Below, piece by piece: positions 9,531 to 58,904 of a stretch of DNA of 64,000 nt. Within the stretch, counting starts at the first letter, position 1; each line of letters opens with the position of its first letter. The notes beneath the pieces are model-generated. The model ran no database searches. It was not told the DNA's origin and saw only the letters and a list, made by a program, of their open reading frames with translations. Origin of the DNA: Phorcus lineatus (lineage: Eukaryota; Mollusca; Gastropoda; Trochida; Trochidae); the NCBI GenBank assembly GCA_921293015.1, contig OV121081.1, positions 78,509,022 through 78,573,021 on the forward strand, written 5' to 3'. The translations under genes were made by a program, and so were the position numbers.

Positions 9531-9535
9531 ATTAC

Positions 9536-17150: not shown

Positions 17151-17159
17151 GCAGGACTG

Positions 17160-17300
17160 ATGTTTAAACGTATGTAACGTAATATGTTATCACCACTGGT
17201 GTGATTCGGGCTGCATCGAGCTGTAAGAAGATAGCTAGAGTGGTAGAGCTAGAGGGTCCCCCTGGCTGGTGATATGGAGATCTGTCACGGGACTGTGTTG
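17160..17300 (+). repeat. Duplicated block I1, copy 1
   Basis: TTTAAACGTATGTAACGTAA..GCTGTAAGAAGATAGC..CTGGCTGGTGATATGGAG..GTCACGGGA aligns with 23105-23250. The best gap between the copies is 7 bases, so the block is not being kept as protein. It marks the left end of the 17-22 kb duplicated unit. Confidence 0.65.
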
Positions 17301-17309
17301 GGAGAATTC

Positions 17310-20390: not shown

Positions 20391-20397
20391 TGTACCC

Positions 20398-22958: not shown

Positions 22959-23104
22959 AGATACACCAGATAACTTTTATTCGACCATAAATATGTTTAA
23001 TCGTATATAAGTTTTGACAAAATACTTTTTAGGAACTATTTATAGATGTTCCCGGCTGTTCATGGTTCCCTTAATTGTTTACCGAGGCACATCAATTTGA
23101 ATGA

Positions 23105-23250
23105 TGGTTTAACGTATGCAATGTAATATGTTATCAGAACTGATTCCTGCTACTCTCAGACTGGCTGTAAGATAATAGCCATCTGATTGTGGAACACCAG
23201 GGCTGGTCGTATGGAGGTGTGTCACAGGAATGAGCTGAAAGGACTCAGTC
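23105..23250 (+). repeat. Duplicated block I1, copy 2
   Basis: Partner of 17160-17300: GGTTTAACGTATGCAATGTA..GGCTGTAAGATAATAGCC..GGGCTGGTCGTATGGAGGTG. It starts duplicated unit 2. Confidence 0.65.
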
Positions 23251-23259
23251 TTCAAATTT

Positions 23260-25610: not shown

Positions 25611-25619
25611 AACATCATG

Positions 25620-27270: not shown

Positions 27271-27279
27271 AGAGTTAAG

Positions 27280-37180: not shown

Positions 37181-37189
37181 ACCACAGAA

Positions 37190-37310
37190 AGAAACCTCGT
37201 TATAGCATGTCGATGTACACATTGATCTCAGCTTATAACTACCTCTGATTACAGGACTTTAAGCACCATTAGGACATGCACACAGAAACGTGTTGGAGGG
37301 ATTGGTGGAT
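37190..37310 (+). repeat. Array block A, copy 1
   Basis: TAGCATGTCGATGTACACAT..GCTTATAACTACCTCT..CTTTAAGCACCATTAGGACA matches 44970-45085. Confidence 0.7.
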
Positions 37311-37789
37311 CCACTTTTTAGTTGAACAGTTTTTCAAATGTGTATACGCATAGAACTATTTAAAGTCAAGTCTTTTACAGTGTCCATCAATGTGAGTATA
37401 ACCTCTATCTAGAAGTTTATGTCACCCTTAATTGTGTAAAAGTTCACAAGAAATGTTCACGTTGAAAGTAATGAGGCTTCACAGATTTTTCAGAAGAAGA
37501 CATATCTGTTTAGAAAGATTTAAAATTGAATAAGTTTTTAAATTTTTTTAATGCTTGTATTTCTAGTACACACTTTATAAGGAAGAAATTTAGGTCTGTT
37601 TAAGGTTGCCACTTCAATATTTCATGCATCTTTTGTGTACTTGATTAAGTGTAAATGACACGAATCATTCTAGACATAAGGATTTTGCAAAAATATTATC
37701 TCAAAGTTAGTCAAATATTATGAATAACCTCATATAGCTCAACTATTTTAAATAAGGGTAAAACATATTTCTTATGTTCTTGAAGAAAT

Positions 37790-37985
37790 ATGGCATAGCG
37801 GACATTAAGCCAGTCTGGCTTCTCTTGTGCATGGACTGCACTAAAAGATTGAGTCACGCTATGTGCACCTTGTCAACGTGACATTTCTTCTTGTCGACTG
37901 GGTCGGGTTGCTCTTATACGAAAAGAAACGTGATATACACATATCTGTTTGGAGGCGATATGCCTCTACAGCTATCTTAAGTTGT
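37790..37985 (+). repeat. Array block B, copy 1
   Basis: GTGCACCTTGTCAACGTGAC, ATTTCTTCTTGT, GGTTGCTCTTATACG and CGTGATATACACATATC match 45905-45990 in order. Confidence 0.65.
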
Positions 37986-37999
37986 GTTTTGAAATAAAC

Positions 38000-40900
38000 A
38001 TTAAAGAACAAAATCTTTATAAGAGGAAATCATAAAAACTTTGTGCACGAGTCTATTTGTTTATTTACTTCTTATCACGAAAATTTCAGAAATAAAGTAA
38101 GTGATGGTCAAAAGATTGTAAGATACAATTTCAAAAGGGTATACCAAGAAGTCGTTATATATGAAACATGTTTTCTTGATTGAACAAAGACCACTGTTGC
38201 CATTAAGAAGAAACATACTTTCAATAAACATGACTTTAGCTCGGTCTTTCTGTAATGATCATAAGTGATTGGTGACAATGATATTACATGACCAAAAACA
38301 CATTCACAATGTTAGGAAATCAAAGAATTAGAGAATCGTTATAGTTTAATAGTTGCAGTTAAACATTAATGGAACATTGTACCTTTAAAGTTGAAGAAAA
38401 TATAACTTAAAGGAATTTCTCAACTCTTTTATTACTGTTTCAATCAGAGAAAGAAAAAATGCATAAAATGCATACAATCCAAAAAGCAAAGTATGTTTTG
38501 AATCGTTTATCAAATTATTGATAAAGTGGTTTATTGCTTTCGGATACCTAATGATGCAATATATCAATGAATATATAAAGGATATTCATATAATATACAT
38601 ATAGGTATACATAAGGATACATACGAGAAGGCATAACACCTGTTGGCTATGGTCATTTTCATATGGCTAAATTATTCTTGCTTATCTTGATATCCACATT
38701 CTGGATAACCTATGCCTTATTTTAATGATTGCCTCAATGAACAGACAGTAACTATATATTATCTAATCTAATGACAATTTAGTGCTGAAACAGTTTCAAA
38801 TAGTGTATTTGCCTACATATCACCTGCAAAAGTAAACAATTGGAACATTTGTTCTTATTTGGTACATTTGGCCAATTGGTTTCCTTTTCTATGTCAATAC
38901 AGAATACATTTATCATAATCAATACCTGTATATCTTATTGACTTTCACAAAATTATTATCGCTTGATAAATCACTCTGAATCTTGTTCTTTTCTAGTATA
39001 ATTGTTGGGATTTTTCTGGTGAAATTCACGTCTCCAAATCCTCCAATGAGTCTTGAAGACGTCAGGAAAAAAGACATTAAAGTAAAATCAAATCAACCCA
39101 AAGGCACTTTTTTACCTGAGAACATCGGCGTTAATTGGTAAAGATATTAACTCCTTTCTGTCAATCGTGAACCAATGACCGAAACAAAAAACAATAGTAC
39201 AAATTGTTACCCTTTATCTAGCATTGTTTAACCTATAAGCAGAAACACACATCACCTATATATAGCATTGTTCAACCTAAGAGCAAAACAAAAATTAGAA
39301 TGACCAGGATATTTCTGAATGTTAAAACAACAGCACAAAATTCTTCTGTAAGTAATATAATAATGACTTTCAAGTACAGCTGCATACCGAAAGTTTGTTC
39401 ACATACCTGCGTGTCCTAGTGCAATTATCATGTAATTTGGGATGTCTTTCAGGCATCATAGGATTGCGAAAAAGAAACGGATAATGTTAAAATTTCAGTA
39501 CAGAAGTGAAGATTCATTGTACTTTAACATAATCGTATATCATACCCAACATTTAACCATAACAGTTTTGGCATGTCATTTAAGTGACCAGGGGTCAAAA
39601 TTCCGAAAACACTCATTTTCATTTTCCGCTACAAAATCCATTTTTTAGTTATCAACAGCTTTAAACACAAGTCATGTTTGTTCCCATGCAAAACATCAAT
39701 GTGATTGTGTTGATTTTTTTCTCGCAGATGGGAACTGTAGTATTTTAATAGAAATTTAAGGAAATAGGAATATCGAAAATATGACCCCTTCTGTTTATTT
39801 CAACATGTTAAAATTCCAATTTTTGCACATTAGAGTAAATGATCCCAAACTAAGTTAAGGAATGGCTATATTTAACATGGACAATAATTGATTCACTTTC
39901 AGTTTTGTGGAAGTAACTTTATTAACGTCAAAACAAAACCCAAATTACATGATATTTGCACTACGATACAGTGGCATACAGCTGTAGATTTGCTTCTGCT
40001 AGATACGGTTATTCTGGAAACCACAACACCTACTAGTAAAAGCATTCTTATTTAGAAATTAAATGGCAGAAATGAACATGAATGTGATTCAACATGTTTC
40101 GAGAGGCTTAGGGTACCATAATAATCTTATTGGCATTAATTTGGCTTACTCTTCGTTCAAATGATGTTTGTTTCCCAGGTGCACCTGTGCAGGACTAGAC
40201 TGTTAGTTAACCAATCGATGACTTACAATGTAAATTTATATATCTATTTTTTTTTGCTGTATACATGACAACAATAATTTTCTTGAAATTAAAATAAAAT
40301 ATAGTTTTGAATATTTCATGTTTTGTTTACAAAGGAAAACAATAAGGTTGTTTTAGACAAAATTTAACTTATAACCTTTCCCCTTTTTATCAATTTAAAA
40401 AAAGTATCTCTAACGTATTGATAACATTTAATAATAGTATAAATGTGTCAATGAAATGAAAAACCACAAAAAGATATATCATCAATGAACTCAACGTACA
40501 ATTACCTTTGAAAGTTTTATTGGCACAAATTTCAATGGCTGAAAAATCCTTTTTCACAACTTCTACCCTAAAAAAGTAAAAAAATAATTTTAAATTAAAA
40601 ACTTCAATGAATCAGCGCACTTTGCAAGAGTGTATTCAACACAAAGAGGATATATTGATGACGCAACGAGTGTGTATTTATATTTTATGTCAACGTGGCT
40701 GAAGAAGTTATTCAATCACATCAACAACTCTATTTGTTGAAATGTTAAAGCAATTTGCCTCTTGTTTAATGTTAAATTTTGTCGTCAGTGTGACATTTAT
40801 AAGCTTCAAATGACACTGTTAATCGTCAAATGACTAATATTGGTGATTATCTTTTTCCGATATCTTCCGTGACCAATAATTGTTGAATAATGACTTTAGT

Positions 40901-41050
40901 AAACGAACCCATATTAGATAGAAACAGTCGTATAGCACTTTCAATATATTGCTATCTATTTACCCTTAGTTATTTTTGTCATAAATATGTTTGTACAAGA
41001 GCATTGTTGAGAGGGAATAGTTTGTATAGTTTATGAATACAAAAACATTC
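38000..41050. other. Diverged DNA between array blocks B and C
   Basis: AT-rich and without recognised genes. Faint similarities to 46-47 kb (for example around 39030 and 47030) are too weak to annotate. Confidence 0.3.
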
Positions 41051-41060
41051 TTTGTTCTTC

Positions 41061-41131
41061 ATTCATTTATCATTATATAATTCATTTATCATTATACAAT
41101 TCATTTATCATTATATGTAATTCATTTATCA
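41061..41131 (+). repeat. ~19-bp tandem repeat, four units
   Basis: ATTCATTTATCATTATATA repeated from 41061, 41080, 41099 and 41120. The last unit is partial. Confidence 0.9.
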
Positions 41132-41184
41132 AACAGAGAAACATTTACATGTACTACACTTGCAACGAGCAACACTATTCAAAA

Positions 41185-41335
41185 GCTGACAGTCACTGAC
41201 CCCTACCAATAAAGATGGAAATCAGCCAATTTGCTCTCGTTATAAGAAACGTCAACCTGGGGCACGAGAATTGGCTGCATTCTTGAATAACAGGAGGGTC
41301 TGAGAAACAGAAACGCCATTTTGGACCAGAATTAT
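41185..41335 (+). repeat. Array block C, copy 1
   Basis: CACTGACCCCTACCAATAAA, GATGGAAATCAGCCAATTTG, GACGTCAAC-type words and GCCATTTT align with 47285-47425. One gap is 2 bases, arguing against coding. Confidence 0.75.
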
Positions 41336-41879
41336 ATATCTTCAATTGAAATGGACAGAAAGAAAAGCTAGATGTTTACCAATCTCCCTAAAACTGATTC
41401 AATGCTAACTACGTCTGCTGAATAATAGTTTGTTTAACTGTGTAAGAGTTTCCAATCATTTTGGAAAATATAGAAGTATAAGTAATATATTGGAAAACTT
41501 TGATATTCCTAATTTGACAATTAGATATCAACTGAAAACATTTTGAGCAAGATTTTTGTTAAAAGAGTCTATATTTGTTAAGATATTTTTAAATGACAAT
41601 TTATAAAGATAATCCGGAAACTACAATTTTTCGCTACGACATGTTTACCTTGTGTACTATATGTGAGTGTAATCTTTAAATGCGTGAAAGTCGAACTTAA
41701 GCAAAAGCAAAAAGACTTTGCAACTTTGAAACAATTTTTAAGCAGCTGTACTGAGAGAAATGTAGGCAACAACATAGAAACAGTCTGCAAAAATATCACT
41801 ACACATCCAAGTATAGAGATATAAGGTGACTTAATCTTACCAAATATAAATTACATTTATGAAACGTGAATGAATTCTA

Positions 41880-42080
41880 CACATCTACTGACAAAGTCCG
41901 TTTCGAGTCACATCAAATCTTGTTTATTTGTATCAGCACGCAAACACTCGGAAAGTGAACGAACGTCGAGAGGAATGAAAGAAATGGAAAAAATTATCTT
42001 GAAAGAAGTTTGTTCAAAAGTTCCAACTTCTAGTTTACTATTTTCACAGCTGCTGTTTTATAAGTACGCATGCCATAAAA
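41880..42080 (+). repeat. Array block D, copy 1
   Basis: CATCAAATCTTGTTTATTTG..GAAAGTGAACGAAC..AGTTCCAACTTCTAG..CAGCTGCTGTTTTATAAGT aligns with 48255-48425. A 74-codon frame is open here, but copy 2 is interrupted by stops. Confidence 0.65.
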
Positions 42081-42604
42081 ATGAAGGCTATTGATTTTAG
42101 ATTTGTTGAAAAAACGTATATTTTAAAATAGATTTTGACACACTATAGTCGAACATTGCCTATACATAGGATATAGATGTGAACACATCTTGTTGGTACA
42201 TTTCGCCATTACACATACCAAAAACAAGAATGAGACAATAAGGTTAACGAGTTGAAGTGTTACACATCAATCTTTATTTCAGTACTGAGGAGGCCACAGG
42301 CCTATAGTACATTTCTTAGATACATCTTTCTTAACATGATTGCTTGGTGAATGAATACTGCAACATTCCGGATAATATTTTCATTCAAACAATTCATTAA
42401 AGGAGAAAATTTATCAATAGATGGATGGACAAAATAAATTTGTTTAATATACTTTCTACGTAATGTGTTATATGTTGGACACACAAGAAGAAAATGATAT
42501 TATATTATAACAGGGATCAAACTTTGATATATGTATTCCATTCTAAGATAACGTTCTTGGGCCCTCTGTCATTTTAACATAAAGTATACATTTCGTCCCA
42601 ACTA

Positions 42605-42890
42605 TTCGTTGCATGTTCTTGCACTTGTATCATTGTATGTTCTTCTGTCCTATAGCAATATCCTGATATATTATATTAACTGTGTGACAGAACCCTGTGT
42701 CAACCCGTTATGCTCGGACGTGACTGGTGTTTCCCATGCTGCATATCATCTTCCCAGACGTGACAAGTCTACAGCGAGACTCATTATCCTCCATTACACA
42801 CATAATTGTTCCTTTCCTCTGTTAGTTAGGATAATTGTTAATTGAATCGGTTAGAACAATCAGTGCCATCCTCCATAGATGACATACTTG
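42605..42890 (+). repeat. Array block E, copy 1 (open frame)
   Basis: Aligns with 53440-53750 and more weakly with 48780-48900. Copy 1 and copy 3 are open in the same frame: CVTEPCVNPLCSDV here and CVTQPHIGPLYTDV there, then RRDKSTARLIILHY and RRDVGSVRLMILDY. The two gaps between them are 18 and 6 bases. This is the only block with any coding-like signature, and I recognise no protein family. Confidence 0.55.
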
Positions 42891-43424
42891 GAATATCAGC
42901 TGTGATGTTCAAGATGATGTTATGCTTTTGCTTGGCTTGGCTATTTTGATACCACGGTGTTCTGTCGGTCGATGCAAGTGTATGTCATTATATGGCAATA
43001 TGCAGTTTATGTTATGGACTATCATTGTCATTAAGAAAACAATGAATAAACCCTGTAGTCGTTTTTGAGTAGGAATAAACATGGACCAACACTCTTATTC
43101 ATTAATTTCCTGTAAGTCGTGTTGTAAATGAACATGTTGTAAAAGTGTTTTTACAAAATATTGATAAGCTTACATAATTGATGTACAAATATGCTCTTTC
43201 TGAGGCAACCCTGCTTAGCAATATTCGGTAAGATGCAATGACAATTTGATGGAAATTTTAAGACAATTGGACCGAATTGCAATAGACATCTCTCTGGCTA
43301 ACTGAATTTGATCTGGATTTAGGTCATTGTTTTATTGCTGGTTTTGACAGATGATTGGCATAGCTGTGCCAATCAATTTTCCCATACAGTTTGATGAAGT
43401 GCCTTGGAATGGTATGAATAGATG

Positions 43425-43500
43425 GTATGAAGACCGAATGAGAAACTTCTGTAGCCGGACAGCTTTATATTTATAGGGAAATGCAATCGAATGAATTAGA
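43425..43500 (+). repeat. Array block F, copy 1 (partial)
   Basis: GACCGAATGAGAAACTTCTG and nearby words resemble 49115-49130 and 54190-54210. The second half found in copies 2 and 3 is absent. Confidence 0.4.
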
Positions 43501-44154
43501 TAAAAGGAAGGAAGACATTTTTCTTAACAAAAGCTATAACAAAGCTCAGTCGTTGTGTAGTCATAATATCTATTTTAGCAATTTATAGAATCGCCTTAGG
43601 AAGATCTAACCTATTGTTTCGTAATATGTAATGTTAAAATTGTGTAACTGCTCTGTTTCCTTACATGTATGTATATTTTGGAGAGACTAGAGAAAATAAG
43701 AAAACAACCATTTATACATGTTTTTTGTCTCATTGTGAATGTAAATAAAAAAATTATACACTCCATTGAACAAAAATTAAAAGACAATTAAAACAATTCC
43801 TTTTAATTGATAAATATGTCCTACATGTAGAATGGCTTGCTTAAAATCGCAAATATAAAGATTGTATATTGATTAGCACCATTCCTAAAAATGGTCTTGA
43901 GACATACCTTTTCCACCGTTATTCTCTATAAAATGTTCCGGATTGTTATTGTTGTATCTATGCGATTGTACATATATAAACACTGAACATTTCCCATATA
44001 TGGTGGAGGTCATTGCTATCTGTATGATTTATATCATCAAAATTCATATAATGATAAAAATGCATGAAACGTTTTTGATTAACTGACTATCTACATTGTC
44101 CATTAATAACCGATCGTACTAAATCATCACAAAGATAGATACCGAATGGTTTGC

Positions 44155-44290
44155 CCGTTTAGGCCTTCTGAAGAAACTATCTTTCACTCCATCCTGTTGA
44201 AGTCACATCAACAGATTCATGGCTCGTCCATCAGCTGTGCTGACGTCAGAAGTGGTGTGGAGTATCTGTAGTCATGCATGTATAGCCAAG
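44155..44290 (+). repeat. Array block G, copy 1
   Basis: CCTTCTGAAGAAACTATCTTTCA..CATCAGCTGTGCTGACGTCAGAAGTGGTGTG aligns with 49428-49540. It includes a CRE-like TGACGTCA that copy 2 lacks. Confidence 0.65.
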
Positions 44291-44299
44291 ATGGATAGA

Positions 44300-44960
44300 T
44301 TAAACACCGACCTGCTCCCCTATCTATTAGTTTCATCCAAAAAAACTATGTCAATAGCTGTTAACGTGCCGACTAGGGTCAGAGGCGGTTCTGGTATTGA
44401 CGTTTGTCTCTGACAAAATTCTTGAACTTCCTGTTTGTGCCATCTGGTATTGCGAAATACTGAAATAACTTCCTGACTAGTGTACCAATGTTATTTCTTG
44501 ATATGAATATCGATTATTGATTTGTTCGTTTGTGAAATGAAATTTGAAGGAAACTTATAAATGTCAAAAAGAGATGCTGATTTTTTCGTAAAAATCCTTT
44601 GAATAATCCTATTAATCTATTGAGATGTTATTTGACATGTAAACGGGTTTTACTTCCTGCGTTTGAACACGTTGAGGACATAGTTGAACACTTCATATGC
44701 GACGTATCGTATGACTATTCACATCTTAAGTATGTAGATGCTAAGAAAGACATTCAATTCATGACCCAAAAATATTCAATGACTTTTAAATCATGGATTG
44801 GAATCACCTGGTCTGTAGTATCAGGAAAATGAGGCACGTCTGATTTCATCCTGATAGGAGGTATATATTTAATAGTGAATATTATATGTGAATAGATTCC
44901 ATACTATTTGACTTGAGCTGAATCCGTCCCAAGTACTGCGGATAGACAGATGCAAGCTTG
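44300..44960. other. Spacer between array units 1 and 2
   Basis: No gene recognised. The 77-codon frame at 44599-44832 has no known motif. Confidence 0.35.
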
Positions 44961-44969
44961 ACAGGAAGT

Positions 44970-45085
44970 CCTGTTTTAGCATGTTGATGTACACGTTGAC
45001 CCCCGCTTATCTTTACCTCTAACTACACCACTTAAAGCACCATTAAGATATACACAGAGTGACGTGATGGGTGGGAGGGGCACAT
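44970..45085 (+). repeat. Array block A, copy 2
   Basis: TTAGCATGTTGATGTACACG..CTTATCTTTACCTCTAACTA..CTTAAAGCACCATTAAGAT, partner of 37190-37310. Confidence 0.7.
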
Positions 45086-45779
45086 TTCATAACATTTCAA
45101 ACGTTTCTATCCACAAGACAGTATCTTAGTTATAGGTTTCTTACTTTTTGCTATAAAATGGCAAAAAAATCAATCATGTATTTACTCAAACTGACAAAAA
45201 CCTCATCTTTAATTAATTGTTACACCTATTGGTAATAAAGTTTCATTTCAATCGTTGCTTCGATGTTCTGTTGCTTTTTACATTAAACCCTCATATTAAC
45301 GTCTTTTGAATAACTATAGTTTTATGTTATCTTTAAAAATCAAGGACCTGTTTTATCTGGTATAGAAACATCTATACAACTCTTGCAATGATGACGCGTT
45401 TAATTTTAATGGTTTAATTCTAGAATATTCTGAGTTATCGTATGCAATTCGAATTTGTTGTTTTCTTTATTATGTAGTACCTTATCACATCAACACACGA
45501 AATTGAGAAATTTCATTGAGAATGTTTCATAGCTATAGAATTTACAATTCTTTTTATTCGAACAGAGAACATTTAATAACCATAATGCAATTCACACTAT
45601 CTCTTTGTTGTCTGGATATACCATATTCATTGTTTATCAATGCAATTATTTCATCCCAAGAAGATATCTGACCGCATATTATATAATATATATATATTCA
45701 TAAAATTAAACTTTTTTTAAAGGTTTCTGAATTTTATTTCAAATTTTTTTGATTAAGTTTGCAAGATGGAATCGGCATC

Positions 45780-45995
45780 AATGAATCTGGGTACCACAAA
45801 GTCTAGCTTTGAAGAGTTAAGTTTTACATGTGAAGTTGCAAAATATTCCTCATGGGCTGAAGCACAGTCTAGCTTGTTCCTGGTTTGCACATTTAATAAG
45901 AGTCGTGATGGTTTGTGCCCTTTGTCAAGTTGACATTTCTTCATGTATAGGTTGCTGCTATACAACTGGTAATGTGATATTTACATATCAGTTAA
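45780..45995 (+). repeat. Array block B, copy 2
   Basis: GTGCCCTTTGTCAAGTTGAC, ATTTCTTCATGTATAGGTTG and TAATGTGATATTTACATATC parallel 37865-37960. Confidence 0.65.
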
Positions 45996-45999
45996 TGGG

Positions 46000-47270
46000 T
46001 GATGTTTAAGGTCTATGTATATGTTTTCCGTTTCTTAACAAACATATGAATTCATACAAGAACTAAAGTATTGTTTTTCAAGTCAAAACATAACGAAAAT
46101 CTAAAATATCAATCCAAATTTATGTTTAACAACAAGATTTGAATTGATAACCGTACGATGCTAAATATAAGTATATCATATCAATAATGTTGTAACGGAT
46201 ATTGATGAGGAGACATGCAGGGGTTGCAAGTGGGTAATTGCTATGGTCTAACTCTAAGGCGTTAAATAGTGATTTGTTATTTATGTTGTAATGAAATATA
46301 TCGAAGAGTTTATCTACAACGGGCGATTACCAATGAAACCATTAAACAAATCCAATATTGTGACATATATATCAATAACCGTAAACAAAAATTCAAAATA
46401 TCATTTCAATTTAAAATCGTTGCTATGAGATGCGTCTAAAAGTGACTGAAGTCGTTCTTAGAGTATATTCTTTACTCAACAGTAAAAATGAAATGGTTTA
46501 AATACTTTTAAAGATAATTCAGTGAAATGATATACTTTAATTCAAAATGGTTCATTGTCCATCTTTGTAAAGCAGTTTAATAATAAATTGTCATGACATT
46601 GTGTCTATCTTGCCAGGGTTAGCTTTTCAACACAACACACAACAAGTCAGACTAGTATTTTGTAGAGATCAGCGCATTTGTATATGTCAAAAACAATATC
46701 AAATTTATAAACTTCCATCTTTCACCAATTCAATTAAAATTGCGTATATGTTAATAATAGCTTTATTGCTATAATAGCCAAGAAGAATTTACAGATACTG
46801 AAATAAATTTAATAGCTAGGACTATCATTAGCAAGTGTATGTTCTGGGTATTATTATTGAGATTGTTTCGTATATTTTAAATGATAAATTAATTTATTGA
46901 TTCACTCATTCTGATCATCTTTTTACAGCTAGATGCAACAACCTTCAATGTGTTAGATCTTCATACATATTAAAATGATCAATTATACAGGTTTGGATTT
47001 AAAGAAAGTTAGTGTTCCCTCAAATCCTCGAGATTCTCTTTGTCCATTAACTGAAAACTATTATCAAAATTATTTCATTTATTGTATCTAGATGGAGAAA
47101 ATCAATGTATTATAAACTGTGCAAATATTTAAAAATATGTTGGCAGTATGAGTATATAACAACTTAAAGGAAACTTTCATTGTGTCGAGTTGTACGTGTG
47201 TGGTTTCAAACTTCTGTATGCAGAGAGAATCATTTATACCCTTATCTTATCCAACGTATCCACTGAACGT
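46000..47270. other. Diverged DNA between array blocks B and C, unit 2
   Basis: AT-rich, no gene or strong repeat recognised. Confidence 0.35.
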
Positions 47271-47279
47271 AACTGCATC

Positions 47280-47430
47280 AATATGCGCTGTCTACAGCCA
47301 CTGACCCACCAATAACGATGGAAATCAGAGAATTTGTTCTGGTTAAAGGAGACGTCAACACGGGTCAATCGTATTTGATCTCTTGCTGGCGTAGCAGAAG
47401 GATCTCTGAACTTCCATTTTATGGTTTCGG
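47280..47430 (+). repeat. Array block C, copy 2
   Basis: CACTGACCCACCAATAACGA, TGGAAATCAGAGAATTTGTT and AGACGTCAACACGGG pair with block C at 41185-41335. Confidence 0.75.
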
Positions 47431-47439
47431 ATACTTTTC

Positions 47440-48220
47440 TATCTTTTCTATCTCATATGAAATGTTCATTATTTATCGTTTTCGCGTAGATTTCTAAGAG
47501 GTTTTCACTTGAGATATGAATTGAGATAATACGGATATGATATATTCAACAGTCACTATAGCAAGATCGTCTACTGTATATATAATTTGATGAAAACTGT
47601 CCTGCAGCTGTCAAAAAAATATTCAGCTGTTGCATACTTGTAAAAATAATAACTTTGATCTCTTTAGGCGATAAAATAAACACGTGATATAGTAATACAT
47701 TTATTTTCATATTTTTTTCTCATTTCTCTGTTAACAGCTATTACATTTTGCTCAACCTAATTTTCGGCTGGGTATTTCATACACTTTACTTATGCCTCAT
47801 TACAAGTAGGAAACGTCAAGAAGCACTCATCAACAACCTTTGTTTCCAGAAAGTGATCCTGTTATACAATAAAACTCTTGTTTCTTTTGCACTAGCAACA
47901 TTCTTTTACATACAAGTTGAACGTTGGTCAGAACTGATTAACTAAAAACACTCACATTTCTACATCTGCCCACAATGTGTTATTCGGTGTAAGTGATGAA
48001 TTATTGATCAAGCTCAAAGGTTAAATAAGATAAAAAGCATTTACGCAGTGTCATTAAGGTTTGGGTGTTATAACTTATATAATCATACTTGTTTTATATT
48101 TTCTTAATGATTACCAACATTCTTATACTTTAATTAACCATTTTAAACTATATTTCAGGCGTTGTAATAGTAAAGTCTGCAACATTTATAAGTAGCACTA
48201 CTTTATCAAATTCGAAAAAG
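47440..48220. other. Spacer between array blocks C and D
   Basis: AT-rich, no recognised gene. The frame at 47748-47945 has no known motif. Confidence 0.35.
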
Positions 48221-48234
48221 AACCCCGTGCCCAC

Positions 48235-48425
48235 CTTAGGTCAGCTCATTTTCATAAACAACATCAAACGTGTTTATTTACTTGCACTCAAGGATGAAGA
48301 GAGTAAACAAACTCTAGACAGCTTAAACAAATGAAAAAGCAGTTTCTCGATAAAATTCTTTTGAAGTGCCAACTTCAAATAAGGACATGTGTATTAATAT
48401 CTCAGCTGTTCTATAAGTGCTCATT
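48235..48425 (+). repeat. Array block D, copy 2
   Basis: CATCAAACGTGTTTATTTAC..GAGAGTAAACAAACTCT..AAGTGCCAACTTCAAAT..CAGCTGTTCTATAAGTGC, partner of 41880-42080. Confidence 0.65.
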
Positions 48426-48779
48426 ACGTACGTACCTCAGACTTAACCTCCAATCGTGATATAAATACTACTCCTGTCAGAGATTGAGATATCAGTCGAA
48501 AATATAACTCATATGAAATATAATATATATATAAAACATAAACTATAATCATATCATAGGAATCCATTTGCTCTTGATGAGAAAGTTTAAAATTATGTAT
48601 TACGGATTTTTGATACTGCATTATATATCACAGGAATACAAGAACGAAATATCGAGTCAACTTATGTGTAATACGGACATTTGATGTGCATTCGATATGG
48701 GAGAACCTTCTACATCTAAAGAACCTCTCTTTAAATTACACGCAGAATATCTTCTGACTCGTTCTTTCTTGTCGTTGTA

Positions 48780-48920
48780 ACCTGTATCAATATCCTGACA
48801 TAAAACATTGTATATAACTTTCCAAGGTCAATCTATATAGAAATAGGCATTTTAGCACTGACGTGACGAGTAACGCCAATATTTGTGGCTGGTATGTAGT
48901 CTAGTCCGTCAGCCAGATCC
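48780..48920 (+). repeat. Array block E, copy 2 (decayed)
   Basis: GTATCAATATCCTGACATAA and ATAGGCATTTTAGCACTGACGTGACGAG resemble copies 1 and 3. A single-base gap breaks the frame shared by the other two copies. Confidence 0.45.
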
Positions 48921-49084
48921 TACAATATGATAACAGCCTAAGCAAGTCTATAATAGGACTTGAGAGCTTGTAAAGAAAAAAATATTTAATTATTAACTAG
49001 ATCAATCTTCTATTGTCATCGTATTGGATTCGAAGATAATCTAGATGACCTTGTATTCCTGTTTCTACACCGATCAGCCTCCCA

Positions 49085-49240
49085 TTGCCGTAATGGCATG
49101 AATAGTTATCGCTAGAGCCGGCGAAGAACTTCTTCAGGTGGACATCGATGTTTTACACTGAAATACAAGAGTCTACTGGGGACAGAAGCAGCGATCACTC
49201 GATGGTCATGAATATACACACCACACACTGTCTCCTGGTG
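49085..49240 (+). repeat. Array block F, copy 2
   Basis: CACTGAAATACAAGAGTCTA, CTGGGGACAGAAGCAGCGAT and CACTCGATGGTCATGAATAT align with 54225-54290. Confidence 0.75.
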
Positions 49241-49424
49241 ACATGTCTGTGGAATAGCTATTTAACAATGTATTGTTTTCCTCTGTAATGTACATACATG
49301 TAGCCGACTCGACTTAACCAAGATAAAGTTAAGAATAAGATGAGCAATACGATTACTGAATGTTTATAAGTTAATAACCAAAAAGGTAATAGCTCAAATC
49401 TTCAACGTCGTACAAACCAATAAC

Positions 49425-49560
49425 GCATTCTGAAGAAACCTATTTTTCATTGTGTCAAACTGACATTCACAGCTATACTGTCTCACCCACCAGCTGCGCT
49501 GACAAGGGAAGTTGTGTGTTTTCATAATAGTATAAAGATTCAAAATCCCAGATGGGACGT
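49425..49560 (+). repeat. Array block G, copy 2
   Basis: CATTCTGAAGAAACCTATTT..CCACCAGCTGCGCTGACAAG..GAAGTTGTGTG pairs with 44155-44290. Confidence 0.65.
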
Positions 49561-49737
49561 CTCAAGCAGAGCGTCTGTTCCTCTTTTGAGTGAAAGTAAG
49601 CTAGAAATATCTCATTTGTGTATGAGTCATTTAATGCAAAATTCTGTTATCTTATTTAAATGCCTCAATTTCTAACGTGGTATTCATTTTTTAATGGACT
49701 TACACTAAAAGAGCCAGATTCCTCCTCTTTATGTTAA

Positions 49738-49985
49738 TTGAAATACAGCAAATTAACCATTTCCTCATTCATTTAGTCTATGAAAAATTAAATAAATGTT
49801 CCTTCATCCATGATATTGTTTTCTCTGGGCTCCTTATTTCATAATTTGTGTATTCAGTCAAACTAGACTTGCTAAATGTGGACCTAGACTGCATTAAAGG
49901 CTCCTTTATATACACAGTCATGTAGCAGGAATATCTAAATTGAAATACAGCAAATTAATCAATTTCTCATTCTTATATATGAAAG
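49738..49985 (+). repeat. 45-bp direct repeats 198 bp apart
   Basis: ATTGAAATACAGCAAATTAA occurs at about 49739 and 49940 and is followed in each case by a similar CATT/TCTCATTC stretch. The second copy leads into repeat R1. Confidence 0.75.
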
Positions 49986-50050
49986 TCTTAAAGGAACATT
50001 ACAGTCACCAATTTGGAAAACTCCAAACGAAGTATATTTTAGAGAAATCT

Positions 50051-50300
50051 CATCTTCCCTCGCATGGCTTTCAATCGTACCAGTCTCTATCACTGGCTAA
50101 TTCAAACCTTGCTCTCAACTCATCAGAATTCGTGTTTTGAGTGCAGTTGCAAGCCTCATCTCTTCTTATTGAACTATCACGATGCCAGTCTGCGTGACAT
50201 GCACAGAAAAGGTAGGAAAATTCGGCAAGGCCTATTCTTGCAAATCATTGGGTCTGACGTAAGAAACGGCCATGCGTGGGAAGATGGTGTAATCTCGGCC
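50051..50300 (+). repeat. Dispersed repeat R1, intergenic copy
   Basis: Partner of 5251-5499 in opposite orientation (CATCTTCCCTCGCATGGCTT, ACCAGTCTCTATCACTGGCT, TTTTGAGTGCAG, ATGCACAGAAAAG, GTGGGAAGATGGTG). Confidence 0.65.
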
Positions 50301-50807
50301 TCTCATGATAAGAACCTTCATAGCTGATCCTATACACAGCTACGTTTAAATATCACTAATTGCATGAAATCATGGCACAGCAAAGATGAACTCCCAAAAT
50401 TTTGTATAATAAAACAATCCAGCTTTGCTATGAAAATGTAAGTGTAGGTTCATGGTATGTTAGTGTCAATTGTGTATACTTTTGGGTCAAAGGTTAATGC
50501 TGTGTATAAGTAATAACCAAATTTTTCATTTGATATCAGCATTAACTACATGACAATTGCACATAAACTACACAAACTTTTAATGCATATTCTTTTTACA
50601 AAGCTATGAAAATCATAATATATAAAATCTGTTAAAATCTAAGACGCTTTCTTTAAGCACATATTTATTTTTTTCCAAATTCTTTCATTCTACACTTGAC
50701 ATGCTTAACATACTTAAAATTTTTGCCTTTGCATTATGTACATCAACTTTTTGATATTATGTGAAAATATACGCACATTTGCTAAAATTGCACTATGAGG
50801 CAACATT

Positions 50808-51403
50808 TAAGTGGCACAAAGTACGTTGTTCGAATTTTTTTATCGAGGAGTAGTGGTTGTCTCTGAAAATCAGAACCATAAAGCTTATAAGTTTTTTATG
50901 TGGGCAATAAACAGGTTTAAGTCGTGTTTTGTGATCGAAAACCGGACAGTTACGCGCGCCAATGACTCAAACGTAATTTTGACAACTTATTTACAGCAGT
51001 CGCTAACACAAACATGGATTGATTGTGTTAATTATTACACATATGGTTATTCATAAGCGGTGTCATATGTTCAATATGAGCACATGTGCACATATCACTT
51101 TTGCCTAGCAACGATTTTCTTAGCGCGAGTTACCGTATTCGTCGTCTGTGACGTTATAAAATCATTGTTCGTGACGTCACTGTAGCGGGCCGGCGGAAGG
51201 GAAGGATGCCGTTTTCTGAATATTTCCATGCCTTTGAAATTGAGTAGAATTGGTAAAAAAGAAATTATTATCCTCGGAAGCGTGCCATATGCCTTTTACG
51301 AAACTCGTGCGAATTAGTGTATTACCCTCGCTCTCGCTCGGGTAATACAAAAATTCACACTCGTTTCGTAAAAGTCATATGACACACTTCCTCGGGTAAT
51401 AAT
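50808..51403 (+). mobile_element. Dispersed element R2, most complete copy, non-autonomous
   Basis: About 600 bases. The 5' part recurs at 4402-4565 and 7500-7715 (both inverted). The 3' part recurs at 9536-9740. The 3' end is a hairpin with 64-bp arms. No transposase frame is seen: the 81-codon frame at 50811-51056 is not kept in the other copies. I see no target-site duplication. It looks like a non-autonomous element or a composite of two. Confidence 0.6.
51264..51403. repeat. Long hairpin, 64-bp arms with 12-base loop
   Basis: Arm 51264-51327 (ATTATTATCCTCGGAAG... to GTGTATTACCC) pairs with 51340-51403 at roughly 85 percent. The loop is TCGCTCTCGCTC. The core CTTTTACGAAAC / GTTTCGTAAAAG is perfect. 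Confidence 0.93.
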
Positions 51404-51409
51404 CTCTAT

Positions 51410-52045
51410 GTAGATCATCTTATTAAGATACATGTAAATGGGACGCAGTAATTCAACTAGGTAACATTGTAACAACCGTCTTCCGATTGAAAACAAGAAA
51501 ATTTCATAATTATGGCTTTTTATAGATAAAGATGTAAGTTTCAAGGAAGAGATTTGAGCATAACTCAGTTTACAAAGTATATACGCCGTATTTTGGAGTT
51601 TACACAAAATGCTGCCTTTTGACTGAATGAAACGAGATTATTTGAACGTCTGGACTACTTTGCTAATTATCATTGCGCAGTGATGAACTATCATTACATG
51701 CTGTTTTTACAAATATCGTTTTGAAAGTGCATAGATAAAACTTAATATTTATAATCGAGTAAAACGATTGATCATAACACTTAATTGAAAATTGTTAAAA
51801 GACATTTCATTATCTTATATGCGAACTCTATATTTTAGTGAAGCGGCGTTAATGTTGGCTGGGCCTGTTAAATATGTCAAGTGTTTTTGCTGTAATTGGT
51901 TTTTGCATTAAATTGAACTTTTAAATTCAATAGAAAACTTCCCTTATATTTCAAAGTTTGATTTTATAAAAATAGATTTCATAATTTGTTTGTTCATTGG
52001 CTCATAAGCGGCGAGTTTCGTTCACAGGGAAAGGTATGTGATGTA
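51410..52045. other. Spacer, no gene recognised
   Basis: AT-rich DNA between the hairpin element and array block H. Confidence 0.35.
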
Positions 52046-52049
52046 GTTC

Positions 52050-52290
52050 TCCAAACCAGTATGTGTAGGTTGAATGAACACCAAGCTGTGTGTGTCTAGA
52101 GTTTGCACTCGTTGACAGCTAACGAAGAATCTGTAAGGTTATCACATTAACTCAGTTTTCACACTATCAGTTATTTAGACAGGAACTTGTTGTAAATAAT
52201 TCAATGCCTTTCAACTGTTGTCTTACTTGAAATACTCCTACATCTGTTTTACCGGTACCACAAGAAGATCGTTAATCCGATTGTAATTTC
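52050..52290 (+). repeat. Array block H, copy 1
   Basis: GTGTGTGTCTAGAGTTTGCACTC, GTAAGGTTATCACATTAACTC, TTGTTGTAAATAATTCAATG and CTTGAAATA recur in the same order at 55510-55670. Confidence 0.8.
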
Positions 52291-52299
52291 AAAATAAAG

Positions 52300-53325
52300 C
52301 ATCTTCATAGTTCCTATTTTGATGAACATTGAATAAAAATGTATGTTAATTTCTTGCACTTCATTTCTGCTCAGTGTAGATTTAATGAAAAATTATTAAA
52401 CGTTTTCACAGCAAACACTGAACATTATTGGTAGTTACTTACAAATGACATAAACGAAAGTAATTTGATAATAATTGAAAGCCTTGCTTACAGCATCATC
52501 CATCAACTGGTCGCTAAGAGTTTGTTTACTCTCTAATTCTTTTACGAGCTCACACTTTGTACGCAAAGTGGCTTTTTGAGATCAAGAGGTTCTGTGTTTT
52601 TTCATGACTCTTAGAACAACATTACATTGAGGGCGTTATACAGCGACTTATATTGGTCGGTCTTCTATTGCTTCTATTTCTAGGTAGAATGGACGTATCT
52701 TTACTTCCTCTTTAACTCTTTTATATCTAGTAATTGTCAACTTCAACATGCCGCGCCTCTTCATCTTGATCGCCAATCTCAATTTTTTCAAGTCAGCATA
52801 TTATTATTAGGTGGTTTACAGTCTATATGTACCACGGCCCTTGAATCTCAGAAAATGGTAGCCATGGTCTTAAACTCAGCTAACGACATTGCAACAGTAG
52901 AATATTGAGAGTCTCATTTCCCATACATATTGGTCTTACGTTTATGTATTTCGGTCGCATTCACCCCTTCTTTCGTGAGAAACTTAACAACTGCACGATG
53001 CTTGATTACAGGAGGTTACCTGTGTTCAACAGGCCGTAAATCTGAAATAAATGACCGGGAAGGGTTGTTTATGTCTGGAAGATGTTGTCAGATGGCTATC
53101 TCAATAATGACATCAACGATGATGACTTCAAGGGTTTATCAATATTCGTGAACTTATTGACTTCCCCTCGCATCTACGTCTCTGTATCTATAGTTTCTCC
53201 AATTCTTTATCCTATCGATGCCTTTCTTACAATCGTATAAACCTCTTTCTCTTCCTTGTTTCTACATCTACCGACTGTCAGATAATTTCTCTCTGTGAAT
53301 CTCTGCTTTTTATGTTGATATTTCA
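52300..53325. other. Spacer with possible minus-strand exon-like frame
   Basis: On the minus strand, 52575-52477 is open (TLRTKCELVKELESKQTLSD..) between an AG and a GTAAGC. It is short, unmatched and probably chance. The rest is non-coding, with a GC-richer patch near 52740-53160. Confidence 0.25.
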
Positions 53326-53329
53326 ATCA

Positions 53330-53345
53330 CCCCCCCCCCCCCCCC
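53330..53345 (+). repeat. Poly-C run, 16 bases
   Basis: Uninterrupted C16 followed by TCC. Confidence 0.95.
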
Positions 53346-53439
53346 TCCTTTTCATCTGTTTATTAACCCCTCTCTTTGTCTTACGTTGTCAGTGATGTTT
53401 TGTTTTGCGACCCACAAGGAATATGTCCCTGCTTTACAT

Positions 53440-53750
53440 ATTTTGTATGCCGTTCTTGTATGTCATCTATAACAATAACCTGACATACTATTGTGTAACA
53501 GGTGCGTGACACAACCTCATATAGGCCCATTATACACAGACGTGATGAGCTATCATAGAATCCTATCATTGCCTCTCACGTCCTTCACTATGAATAGACG
53601 TGATGTGGGCAGTGTCAGACTTATGATCCTCGATTATGCACTGTCGCATAATTATCCCTTTGACCTTTCCTTTTCATAAGGATGTTTATTGTTAATTGAT
53701 TCGATATAATTACCTTGAACAATCAGTGTCATCCACAATCAATTACATAT
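53440..53750 (+). repeat. Array block E, copy 3 (open frame)
   Basis: GTATGTCATCTATAACAATA, ACCTGACATACTATTGTGTA, GACGTGATGAGC, AGACGTGATG, GTTAATTGATTCG and AACAATCAGTGTCATCC match 42630-42880. The frame CVTQPHIGPLYTDV..RRDVGSVRLMILDY parallels copy 1. Confidence 0.7.
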
Positions 53751-54144
53751 TTTGAAAGACAATTGTAATTACTTCAAGATATCATTATATTTCTCCAGAT
53801 TGTTCATCTTTAACGATTTCAGAGATATTTCTATCGGGCCGACGTACGAGTATATTTGTACATGAGTATATTTTTATATGGCAGTATTGAGATTACACAT
53901 ATACAAAGATGGGCATTAGGAATGTAATACATAACTTAAAAAGTTCACTCGTGTACTAATTCTTCTTGAATCGTACATGGTATTCTTATCCATGATGAGC
54001 ACATTAGTGTGAAAACTATTTGCAAGTCTTAATATATTTAATCATTAGCATTTTAATCAAATGATTATGCATGTTGTAAGTACACACAAAAAAATAATAA
54101 ACACAATTAGGAATTCGCTTGACTTTGCGTCCCTCAATCTCCGA

Positions 54145-54295
54145 TAAGCCATTGAATTACGGGATTTTATTAACAGCCATTTGTAGACCGGTTAAGAAAC
54201 TTTTCCTTCTTGACTAGGTGTATTCACAGTGAAATGCAATAGTCTACAGGGGATTGCAGCATTGATCACATGATGGTCGTGGATATCTGTCCTCC
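54145..54295 (+). repeat. Array block F, copy 3
   Basis: CACAGTGAAATGCAATAGTC, TACAGGGGATTGCAGCATTG and ATCACATGATGGTCGTGGAT match block F at 49150-49220. Confidence 0.75.
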
Positions 54296-54299
54296 CCAT

Positions 54300-55480
54300 G
54301 GTAAGATTTCTCTGCTAAAAGCTATTCTTAAAAAGGTTGTGTTGACCTGCAATCTTGACGATTCTTTAAAAAATTAAAGAAACCAATTTGGAACATCTAG
54401 TTTTAGAAAGTCAAAACCTTTAATAAAGTATATGTGTTTCATTGGCTTTCTTTTGTCTCACTTCTTCTGTAGTTAAAACGGTTGTATTTCAGTCTCTCAT
54501 GTCTCAAACAAATCCCATGAATATCAGTTAAGAATTCGAATATGTAACTGAAATACGTGTTTTTTGTGCGTTTACAATCCCAATCACACGCGTATATTTC
54601 TCTATAAAAGTAAGAATGTTATATCTTATTTGTATCGTATTCATTTTTGCCTTATGTTCTCATCTCGTCAAATGTTATAAATTCTCAAGATAAATTCTTA
54701 TTCCGCTTTTTTTTCAATGAATGAGCGTACAGTACACGATACACCAATGGGTTATATATTTTCCCGTTTTGTTTCTAGTACTTATTCCTCAATGTAACTT
54801 ATTAAATGATGTATCTACCACTCCAATATTCTCTTAAGCGTTCTCTGAAAGTCCTACAGTCACATATGCTAAACGTATCAGAACTTTCCTTTATACAACT
54901 TATCATCAATAGTTCTCCTAGGTACAGACACTATGCAATGCATGCAAACATGGTACGACGAACGGGAGTTCTCCAAATTGTTTTACTAATGAATATATTT
55001 AGACTTTCGAAAAGGATAATACCAAAGCAATTAAATAGGATATTAATGTCAAATGTATCTATTTTGGTATTAAAGGTCAACACTATTCTAATTTTAGCTA
55101 CGTGACAAACAATCTAATTCACGAATATATACATGAACTACTTGACATGTACACATTGTAAATGTCAGTTTTTGCCTAATCACACAGAATGATATTCAAT
55201 ATTCATTTGCAATTAAAATTGTATCGTTTCGAAAGCTGTAGTATGAAAAAAAATAATGTTATTCCTGTTTTTACTGTGTTACACTTCTCCGCAAAACTTT
55301 AAACTTCAGCATATGAAAATGCCTAGCTTAAAAAGCAACAAGAAAAAATTATTGATTTAAAGGAGAAGTAATAGCGTCAAATGAACATCAGCATGTGCCA
55401 GTTCACGTGCGAGCTAAATTCATGGAAAAATTTGAAGAAAGATGTAAAAAGATTACAGTGAAACAGCCTGTTTTCTAGAA
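54300..55480. other. Spacer, no gene recognised
   Basis: AT-rich. The 99-codon frame at 54806-55105 has no motif and is probably chance. Confidence 0.35.
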
Positions 55481-55489
55481 AATCGCCCC

Positions 55490-55720
55490 AAGTTTAGTCT
55501 GAACACAGAGTTGTGTCTGGGTAGAGGCTGCACTCGTTCACACCCACAGATGAAACTATTAGGTTATCACAATAACTCGTTTCTCACATCATCAGGCCTA
55601 GGTCCTTTGACCGTACTGTGTTGTAAATGATTCCTTTCAACAGTTTTTTCCTTGAAATAGCCGTGTCATTTATTGTGCAGTTGCTACAAGTAAGAGTTCA
55701 CTAATAATACGGAAGATTTT
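55490..55720 (+). repeat. Array block H, copy 2
   Basis: GAGTTGTGTCTGGGTAGAGG, CTGCACTCGTTCACA, TTAGGTTATCACAATAACTC, GTTGTAAATGATTCCTTTC and CTTGAAATAGC pair with 52075-52240. Confidence 0.8.
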
Positions 55721-56030
55721 AAAAACATTGTTACTAGTTTATCATTTGTTGAATAGAAAGATGCAGGTTTCAAGCAAATACTGTCTGCTCATTGAAGAAA
55801 TCATCATGTATGTAAAACTTTACATACTGTATGTTCATAAGTTGATAATATGTCATAATAAATGAATGCCTAGCCTTGCCCACAGAGAATGTTTACTTCT
55901 TAATCTTTCTGCGAGTTTGAACATTTTGAAGTACACATTACTACTTAGTGAACATTATTACTTAGTCTTTGAACATTATTATACTGAGGGTGTTTCCATG
56001 TCTATCTGTCTGTTTCTATGTCTCTGTTTG

Positions 56031-58846: not shown

Positions 58847-58904
58847 ATGAAGAACTTGTGGATATTAGTGTATTTATGTGCTGGGATTCTAGCAAATGAA
58901 AATG
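58847..58904 (+). CDS. First coding exon, signal peptide of a secreted or membrane protein
   Basis: The ATG at 58847 starts MKNLWILVYLCAGILANENG: a Lys, a hydrophobic core of about 12 residues, and a likely signal peptidase site after ILA (AxA-like, before NENG). The exon stops after the first base of codon 20 at a perfect GTAAGT donor, phase 1. Phase-1 introns right after the signal peptide are usual in multidomain extracellular proteins of animals, so a receptor or adhesion molecule is plausible. No further exon could be identified in the 5.1 kb to the window end, so the first intron is probably long. The family cannot be told from 19 residues. Confidence 0.65.

Follow-up and report, generated by a model that had tools for sequence, protein, structure and literature searches.

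A local family of tandem and inverted non-coding blocks as candidate enhancers of a predicted adhesion gene in Phorcus lineatus

In an intergenic stretch of the Phorcus lineatus genome, bounded by frataxin and by the likely exon 1 (58.85 kb) of a predicted adhesion gene, we identified a local family of non-coding blocks carried by six related segments (units 1 to 4, L and L') in tandem and inverted arrangement. Judging from sequence, we assign a probability of roughly one half, marginally on the favourable side, to the reading that these blocks are related enhancers of the predicted immunoglobulin (Ig)-type adhesion gene that appears to start at about 58.85 kb. Positions are those of the window, the whole 64-kb stretch of DNA that was analysed, and feature coordinates are collected in Table 1.

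Results

Colinear islands in four tandem units

Self-comparison of 36-57 kb returned eight same-strand HSPs at E<=1e-3, comprising seven island pairs and one local repeat (49730/49932), against a mean of 0.03 and a maximum of 1 HSP in 100 local dinucleotide shuffles. The matched copies of islands A, B, C, E, F, G and H are colinear and on the same strand, and are distributed over unit 1 (37.2-44.3 kb), unit 2 (45.0-50.6 kb), unit 3 (52.1-55.1 kb) and unit 4 (55.5-56.0 kb). This bears out the initial annotation, which had described blocks recurring in one order on one strand, except that its block D, together with the unit 2 copy of E and the unit 1 copy of F, stands as a weak match only; islands I and J, absent from its block list, are additions of the present analysis. 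Chain scores lay above all 20 shuffles for unit pairs 1/2, 1/3, 2/3 and 3/4, and did not surpass all 20 for pairs 1/4 and 2/4.

Aligned identity directly beyond the islands drops to about the level of unrelated DNA, and identity peaks over 60 columns reach 0.63-0.90 in the islands against a maximum of 0.60 for unrelated pairs (359 windows). The old local duplication that the initial annotation had proposed is upheld.

Table 1. Positions of the flanking exons, islands, units and shared cores in the 64-kb window
Feature	Position	Strand	Remarks
Frataxin, final three coding exons, upstream neighbour	6690..7961	+	
Island K, copy 1	17041..17333	.	62% to copy 2 over 303 columns, E 6e-13
Island K, copy 2	22996..23274	.	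62% to copy 1
Unit L, conserved, about 1.9 kb	20382..22288	-	inverted relative to 37-56 kb array; 71% identity with 25610-27273 over aligned columns
Unit L', second inverted copy	25610..27273	-	paired with unit L
Core M in unit L	21665..21760	-	matches 52574-52639, opposite strand
Core C in unit L	22181..22261	-	reciprocal profile matches with the C islands of units 1 and 2
Core M in unit L'	26642..26737	-	profile match and pattern
Core C in unit L'	27166..27245	-	profile match and pattern
Island A, unit 1	37184..37296	+	77% to unit 2 copy, E 2e-17
Island A, unit 2	44961..45070	+	77% to unit 1 copy
Island B, unit 1	37824..38001	+	65% to unit 2 copy, E 2e-10
Island B, unit 2	45873..46045	+	65% to unit 1 copy
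Island C, unit 1	41189..41306	+	73% to unit 2 copy, E 9e-15; holds four-copy core
Island C, unit 2	47294..47410	+	73% to unit 1 copy; holds four-copy core
Island D (weak)	42488-42551 ~ 48973-49039	same strand	E 0.01
Island E, unit 1	42633..42915	+	62% to unit 3 copy, E 3e-15
Island E, unit 2 (weak)	48757..48870	+	profile match E 5.8e-4
Island E, unit 3	53443..53780	+	62% to unit 1 copy
Island F, unit 1 (weak)	43406..43488	+	profile match E 8.6e-5
Island F, unit 2	49046..49282	+	64% to unit 3 copy, E 2e-14
Island F, unit 3	54120..54348	+	64% to unit 2 copy
Island G, unit 1	44163..44259	+	70% to unit 2 copy, E 5e-7
Island G, unit 2	49425..49518	+	70% to unit 1 copy
Island I, unit 2 (colinear, weak by itself)	49560..49690	+	61% to unit 3 copy, E 0.026
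Island I, unit 3 (weak alone)	54578..54702	+	61% to unit 2 copy
Island J, unit 2 (colinear, weak by itself)	50361..50553	+	59% to unit 3 copy, E 0.004
Island J, unit 3 (weak alone)	54939..55136	+	59% to unit 2 copy
Island H, unit 3	52075..52408	+	64% to unit 4 copy, E 2e-25
Island H, unit 4	55500..55824	+	64% to unit 3 copy
Core M, unit 3	52562..52645	+	profile match and pattern
Core M trace, unit 4 (weak)	55964..55994	+	E 0.08; near position predicted by unit 3 H-M spacing
Likely exon 1, predicted immunoglobulin-type adhesion gene	58847..58904	+	signal peptide MKNLWILVYLCAGILANEN, GTAAGT donor

Inverted copies and shared cores

A second part of the array, missed by the initial annotation, lies at 17.0-27.3 kb and is inverted relative to the 37-56 kb array. 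It contains units L and L' and both copies of island K, of which copy 1 gave no match within the 37-56 kb array. Units L and L' share two cores with the 37-56 kb array, C (four copies) and M (three copies and one weak), and the cross-array matches of M and C, on opposite strands, reached z 9.9 and 7.4 (0/200 shuffles each) and were the top two of 132 comparisons. The presence of both cores on both strands at the locus may serve as a weak proxy for orientation-independent enhancer action. In a search of 214 kb with the block profiles, every match with E below 0.05 fell inside 17-56 kb.

Two other candidates were rejected: a match between F and J (17 columns, z 4.5, 0/200 shuffles) was treated as chance among the 132 comparisons, and 1647-1713 (L-end profile E 0.02, between C islands at 0.01 and 0.05) aligns poorly and was dropped as a family member. 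The only Rfam match in the window, a tRNA-like one at 18963, falls outside the block family, and ARAGORN found no tRNA.

Copy number in the genome

DNA searches of the genome placed unit L at two places, both at the locus, and the A-B-C stretch of unit 2 at one place, where "one place" holds at the sensitivity of a search that misses short copies at 62-81% identity and did not itself return the sister islands at the locus. Exact pattern searches, with no mismatch permitted, found C at four places in the 958 Mb genome and M at three, all at the locus, while backward-pattern controls for both found none. The many dispersed copies by which the initial annotation would have recognised ordinary transposon fragments were not found for L, for A-B-C of unit 2 or for the C and M patterns. 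Searches with 36900-44400 and 48740-49700 returned scored lists filled by spacer repeats, which lie at 39375-39977 (5092 first-look places), 43886-44019 and about 48902-48970 (413). Two further stretches, at 48.9 and 49.8-49.95 kb, matched 72.8-74.4 kb and were also taken as repeats; of these, 48902-48970 was shown to be repeated.

Those block parts that can be tested genome-wide are not dispersed repeats, though some spacers contain repeats. Such spacers speak for an origin of the blocks as old copies of a transposon family, but the islands tested differ from the spacer repeats in their few and local places, and we regard this origin as barely credible.

Coding and RNA potential

Six-frame Pfam scans of 18.5-64 kb on both strands, with stops as X, yielded nothing credible (nor any credible domain in 36-64 kb), and Pfam coverage of 8-18.5 kb consisted of three single open frames. 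Pfam matches at E 0.007-0.09 fell under the cut-offs and were set aside, as was PNK3P at about 19788-20034 (-), which has 5 stops in 82 residues. No signal of synonymous change emerged from 174 coding tests, the best of which reached z 1.9. A threshold of 14 on an amino-acid composition score left no candidate in 36.5-57 kb but a CT repeat, and the phase of mismatches is flat and frame-breaking gaps are many. By the tests made, the blocks are non-coding, and the preference of the initial annotation for a non-coding over a protein-coding nature holds.

These results bear directly on the proposal that the blocks are decayed protein-coding tandem genes. Gene clusters typically show such a mixture of tandem and inverted copies, and by eye L and L' read alike in one frame at 20450-20530; the equivalent of that stretch in L', also by eye, is nevertheless broken by an in-frame stop and by a shift of frame, and with the absence of a credible Pfam match, the flat mismatch phase and the negative coding tests this makes a pseudogene cluster very improbable.

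One or more duplicated long non-coding RNA genes, with the islands as exons or conserved parts, would agree with the non-coding character of the islands and with tandem units that resemble a duplicated gene, but we consider this unlikely given the folding results and the cores, which keep their similarity in either orientation. When single copies of eight islands were folded on both strands (16 strands), z ranged between -2.1 and +1.1; no fold was strong, the lowest values belonged to island C, on each of its strands, and to the minus strand of island G, and Rfam gave no match in 36.5-57 kb even at E<=2. The structured RNA offered in the initial annotation as one possible function thus finds no support in the single copies folded or in Rfam.

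Selection or uniform decay

The alternative that weighs most on the interpretation is that an old duplicated intergenic segment has decayed without function, the islands being chance survivors. We simulated uniform decay, and one of 20 runs at a substitution rate of 0.36 per branch passed the best-hit criterion for units 1 and 2, with a simulated mean coverage of 15% against the 11% seen; none of the other 140 runs did so (1/160 over all rates). The comparison of units 2 and 3 (coverage 0.32, best score 74 bits) and that of the H region (coverage 0.24, best score 111 bits) both fall inside the simulated ranges at rates of 0.33-0.36, and the spacers are broken by repeat insertions, which also favours this alternative. 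Uniform decay can yield numbers like those obtained for the 37-56 kb units. Island G+C is higher than that of the spacers (0.376 vs 0.321), a difference reached by 0.3% of 5000 circular shifts, which speaks against a neutral origin.

The inverted copies provide further evidence against such an origin. Identity along L is uneven and over-dispersed (chi2 74.7 over 26 windows, p 7e-7), with higher-identity stretches at about 20470, 20874, 21453, 21686 and 22200. The top window of L (52/60) is inside the permutation range (maximum 57, 2000 permutations), which places the excess in how widely identity varies, troughs included. Two of the three highest stretches, M with 0.90 and the C end with 0.87, are parts common to both arrays, and the third, at about 20470 (0.87), is not common to the 37-56 kb array. 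The uneven 20-27 kb copies and the cores common to both arrays support selection, and it is for these that the earlier proposal of similarity kept only in functional pieces finds backing, whereas for the 37-56 kb units uniform decay can mimic the pattern. Because units 2 and 3 and the H region lie within simulated ranges and the top L window within permutation, we place less weight on the enhancer reading and more on neutral remnants than we otherwise would; a functionless origin for the family nonetheless appears rather unlikely to us.

The neighbouring genes

The likely exon 1 of the adhesion gene ranked first among six candidates combining a signal peptide and a donor in the whole 64-kb window, and is 2.9 kb from the array; a relative of this exon was looked for and none was found. 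Ig exons follow downstream at window-equivalent 92.5-109.5 kb, and their relatives are lachesin-like, amalgam-like and NCAM. We infer that exon 1 and the Ig exons, 34 kb off, form one gene model. By eye, the Ig exons terminate in a GPI-like tail.

Genuine cis-regulatory elements might instead serve frataxin, the other neighbour, or some gene beyond the sequence analysed, or have a boundary function. Enhancers are able to skip genes, but the array sits past the 3' end of frataxin, which is a housekeeping gene, and the likely first exon of the adhesion gene is the close one; such a role seems improbable.

Discussion

We favour the reading that the blocks are related enhancers of the adhesion gene. 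Under it, local duplication, both tandem and inverted, would have copied an ancestral regulatory module at least six times while leaving its gene single; short clusters of transcription-factor sites would have been kept by selection while spacers decayed and gained repeats; and the copies would act additively or divergently on a single promoter, in either orientation. A more specific version, possible but doubtful, holds that one enhancer module was multiplied at least six times in place without a gene, giving an array of about 40 kb that may drive a gastropod neural-type adhesion gene with multiplied Ig domains, its copies sharing a core code (C and M) and having gained islands of their own.

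Most work on enhancer multiplication has dealt with cases that follow the duplication of genes or genomes or that derive from transposons, and to our knowledge conserved non-coding DNA in molluscs is little mapped. If the enhancer reading is true, a single genome acts as its own comparison for a gene-free, local, inverted-and-tandem element family at one promoter, in which shared cores would indicate required binding sites and copy-specific islands would reveal the divergence of duplicated switches. C and M are short sequences ready for testing.

The blocks are non-coding, as conserved non-coding elements are, their copies being compared within one genome. As far as they are described in PMC2781166, vertebrate dCNEs are likewise old paralogous non-coding elements that retained cores after duplication; the present blocks share with them the existence of paralogous non-coding copies in one genome, whereas dCNEs lie near paralogous genes and the copies here are adjacent at one mollusc locus, in both orientations. 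No duplicated gene accompanying the block copies was found in the intergenic stretch by Pfam scans or composition score. The human regulatory element families characterised in PMC13333887 likewise originate, in that account, from a duplicated DNA segment and not from transposons, but are defined by similarity and open chromatin, with a subset tested by STARR-seq and CRISPRi, whereas our blocks are strongly diverged and known from sequence alone. Shadow or redundant enhancers, as commonly described, similarly involve sets of related elements that presumably share a single promoter, and differ in being defined by overlapping activity. Clusters of conserved non-coding elements, or genomic regulatory blocks, also have numerous non-coding islands next to a gene, in a region otherwise poor in genes; in their usual description they are known by between-species conservation around developmental regulators, whereas the elements here are copies of each other in one genome, and their neighbour is a predicted adhesion gene.

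Colinear islands in the first array

Permissively scored self-comparison of 36–57 kb recovered the recurring blocks A–H of the initial annotation, on the same strand and colinear as it had described. Seven island pairs and a short local repeat (49730/49932) make up the eight HSPs found at E ≤ 1e-3, compared to a mean of 0.03 and a maximum of 1 in 100 shuffles that kept local dinucleotide content. Chain scores between array units exceeded all 20 shuffles for U1–U2 (355 vs a shuffle maximum of 209), U1–U3 (210 vs 164), U2–U3 (231 vs 189) and U3–U4 (279 vs 141), and fell below the shuffle maximum (20 shuffles) for U1–U4 (162 vs 217) and U2–U4 (96 vs 162). Block D (E 0.01) and the later additions I (E 0.026) and J (E 0.004) are individually weak, yet colinear.

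Coordinates of the main features (positions counted in the window)
Feature	Position	Paired copy	Remarks
Frataxin exons	6.69–7.96 kb		
K	17041–17333	22996–23274	62% identity
L	20382–22288	25610–27273	71% of aligned columns identical
L high stretches	about 20470, 20874, 21453, 21686, 22200		
Units U1–U4	37.2–44.3, 45.0–50.6, 52.1–55.1, 55.5–56.0 kb		
Likely first exon	58847–58904		signal peptide MKNLWILVYLCAGILANEN, then GTAAGT donor in phase 1

A second, inverted array shares two cores

Comparison of the whole window revealed two further colinear duplications, K and L, in an inverted array at about 17–27 kb. Identity along the L pair is uneven (chi2 74.7, 26 windows, p = 7e-7), and its troughs weigh as much as its peaks because the best window (52/60) is within the permuted range (maximum 57, n = 2000). 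Two of the three highest L stretches are common to the first array on the opposite strand; that at 20470 is not shared. The core M, at 21682–21743 and 26659–26720, matches 52637–52574 on the opposite strand (E 1e-5 and 2e-6; E 8e-9 in a profile search). The end of L and island C are reciprocal profile matches: L profiles detect C of unit 2 (E 0.01) and of unit 1 (E 0.05), and both L ends are the top off-target matches of the C profiles (E 0.09 and 0.24). A candidate family member at 1647–1713, ranked between the two C islands by an L profile (E 0.02), was dropped after alignment.

When cross-block comparison was limited to columns where both copies agree (132 comparisons, 200 shuffles each), L–M (z 9.9) and L–C (z 7.4) ranked highest and neither value was reached by any shuffle; F–J came third (z 4.5, 17 columns, 0/200 shuffles). 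Unit 4 carries a trace of M close to the position predicted by H–M spacing (E 0.08). We infer a single ancestral module, in which C preceded M, as compatible with both arrays. Young tandem repeats with 63-base and ~103-base periods, 95–97% identical, lie at 22770–22959 and 31166–31464.

Copy number across the genome

In the 958 Mb assembly (74 contigs), where the window spans C1:78509022–78573021, IUPAC patterns spanning the four C cores and the three M cores match exactly those four and three places, with no matches for backward controls; as the patterns were built from these very copies, the only news is that there are no others at zero mismatches. As DNA queries, L finds two places, both at the locus, and the A-B-C stretch of unit 2 (44940–47500) finds one, as does E-F-G of unit 1 aside from a short dispersed repeat in its F–G spacer (43886–44019; six other places). 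Spacer repeats flooded the results of two queries: one through a MITE-like element, ~600 bases long with inverted ends, in the spacer that precedes C of unit 1 (39375–39977; 5092 first-look places, copies 82–91% among the best 40 scored), the other through a short dispersed repeat in the E–F spacer of unit 2 (about 48902–48970; 413 first-look places, best 40 scored). DNA search missed sister islands of 62–81% and is therefore blind to short islands whose copies are old. In the 214 kb surrounding the locus, no block profile had a match with E < 0.05 beyond 17–56 kb, the best one there being J at 142 kb (E 0.065). The initial annotation had named ordinary transposon fragments as the reading that many copies would favour; for the testable parts, few and local places lead us to reject a dispersed transposon family.

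Coding and RNA potential

A protein-coding origin is rejected, in agreement with the earlier non-protein reading: Pfam gave no credible match in 18.5–64 kb, none of 174 block-frame tests found an excess of synonymous changes (best z 1.9), and in the L pair mismatch phase is flat and many gaps are not divisible by three. At 20450–20530, L and its second copy L' are alike in one frame (24/27 residues by eye; coding-test z 1.9), with a stop and a frame shift in L'. Exons of a non-coding RNA remain a rival explanation; no known RNA family was found in 36.5–57 kb, and single copies of eight islands, when folded, gave no strong structure. A tRNA-like sequence at 18963–19029 (Rfam RF00005, 32.8 bits; no ARAGORN call), with a similar translated stretch at about 145.65 kb in the downstream flank, is perhaps a SINE head.

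Selection or uniform decay

Beside the seven profiled islands, 60-column identity drops to roughly that of unrelated pairs (maximum 0.60 among 359 windows), from peaks of 0.75 (A, F), 0.70 (C, H) and 0.63–0.65 (B, E, G), with 0.90 in L. Islands have a G+C content of 0.376 vs 0.321 in spacers, an excess reached by 0.3% of 5000 circular shifts. Simulated uniform decay at a rate of 0.36 gives coverage resembling that of units 1–2, with 1/20 runs at this rate and 1/160 over all rates reaching the benchmark set for that pair, and the U2–U3 and H-region values also lie inside simulated ranges at rates of 0.33–0.36. Since uniform decay can mimic the first-array figures, the main grounds for selection are the unevenness of the L pair and the cores kept in both arrays. 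For those parts they favour the original proposal that only functional pieces stayed similar, against which stand the matching simulated figures for U1–U2, U2–U3 and the H region, and neutral remnants remain an alternative.

Genomic setting and a possible regulatory role

The window is animal DNA of about 34% G+C, and its frataxin is closest to those of Haliotis (69–70%), Patella (70%) and Lottia (68%), which makes a gastropod source likely. Repeat pieces at 50051–51566, among them an 82% inverted repeat (51260–51407), are shared with the frataxin region (5311–5499, 7341–7662 and 9531–9732). The likely first exon is the best of six signal-peptide-plus-donor candidates when both strands of the window are considered, and we infer that it belongs with immunoglobulin-domain half-exons in the 140 kb beyond the window. 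These lie on the + strand between about 92.5 and 108.8 kb (numbered on from the window start), after which the frame closes near 109.5 kb with a hydrophobic tail, GPI-signal-like by eye. When this exon is approximately joined with eight Ig pieces, the closest similarities are to fish Ig-domain proteins and to lachesin-like, amalgam-like and NCAM proteins. At 92.5–109.5 kb, V- and I-set-like Ig half-exons of the predicted adhesion gene recur many times, as though the Ig modules had been multiplied too. Further downstream lie a 662-codon open frame (163947–165932), presumably a piggyBac-type transposase, and what we take to be collagen-like repeat exons on the + strand at 180–191.5 kb with a mariner-like frame between them on the other strand.

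The islands may be clusters of putative transcription-factor sites, in a module copied in either orientation 3–42 kb upstream of the likely first exon. Strings are common to both copies of C (GATGGAAATCAG), E (ATTGTTAATTGA and GAACAATCAGTG) and H (AGGTTATCACA), and one M string is kept in three copies (TGAGATCAAGAG). Judged by its sequence, such a layout would be expected of a duplicated enhancer array.

A literature search whose coverage takes in few subscription papers found nothing joining conserved noncoding DNA, a gastropod genome and tandem duplication. Regulatory DNA conserved across animals is described as an exception, with mention of an Id enhancer found in gastropods (PMC10735318), and the closest known systems appear to be vertebrate duplicated conserved elements (PMC2781166) and families of human regulatory elements arising from segmental duplication (PMC13333887).
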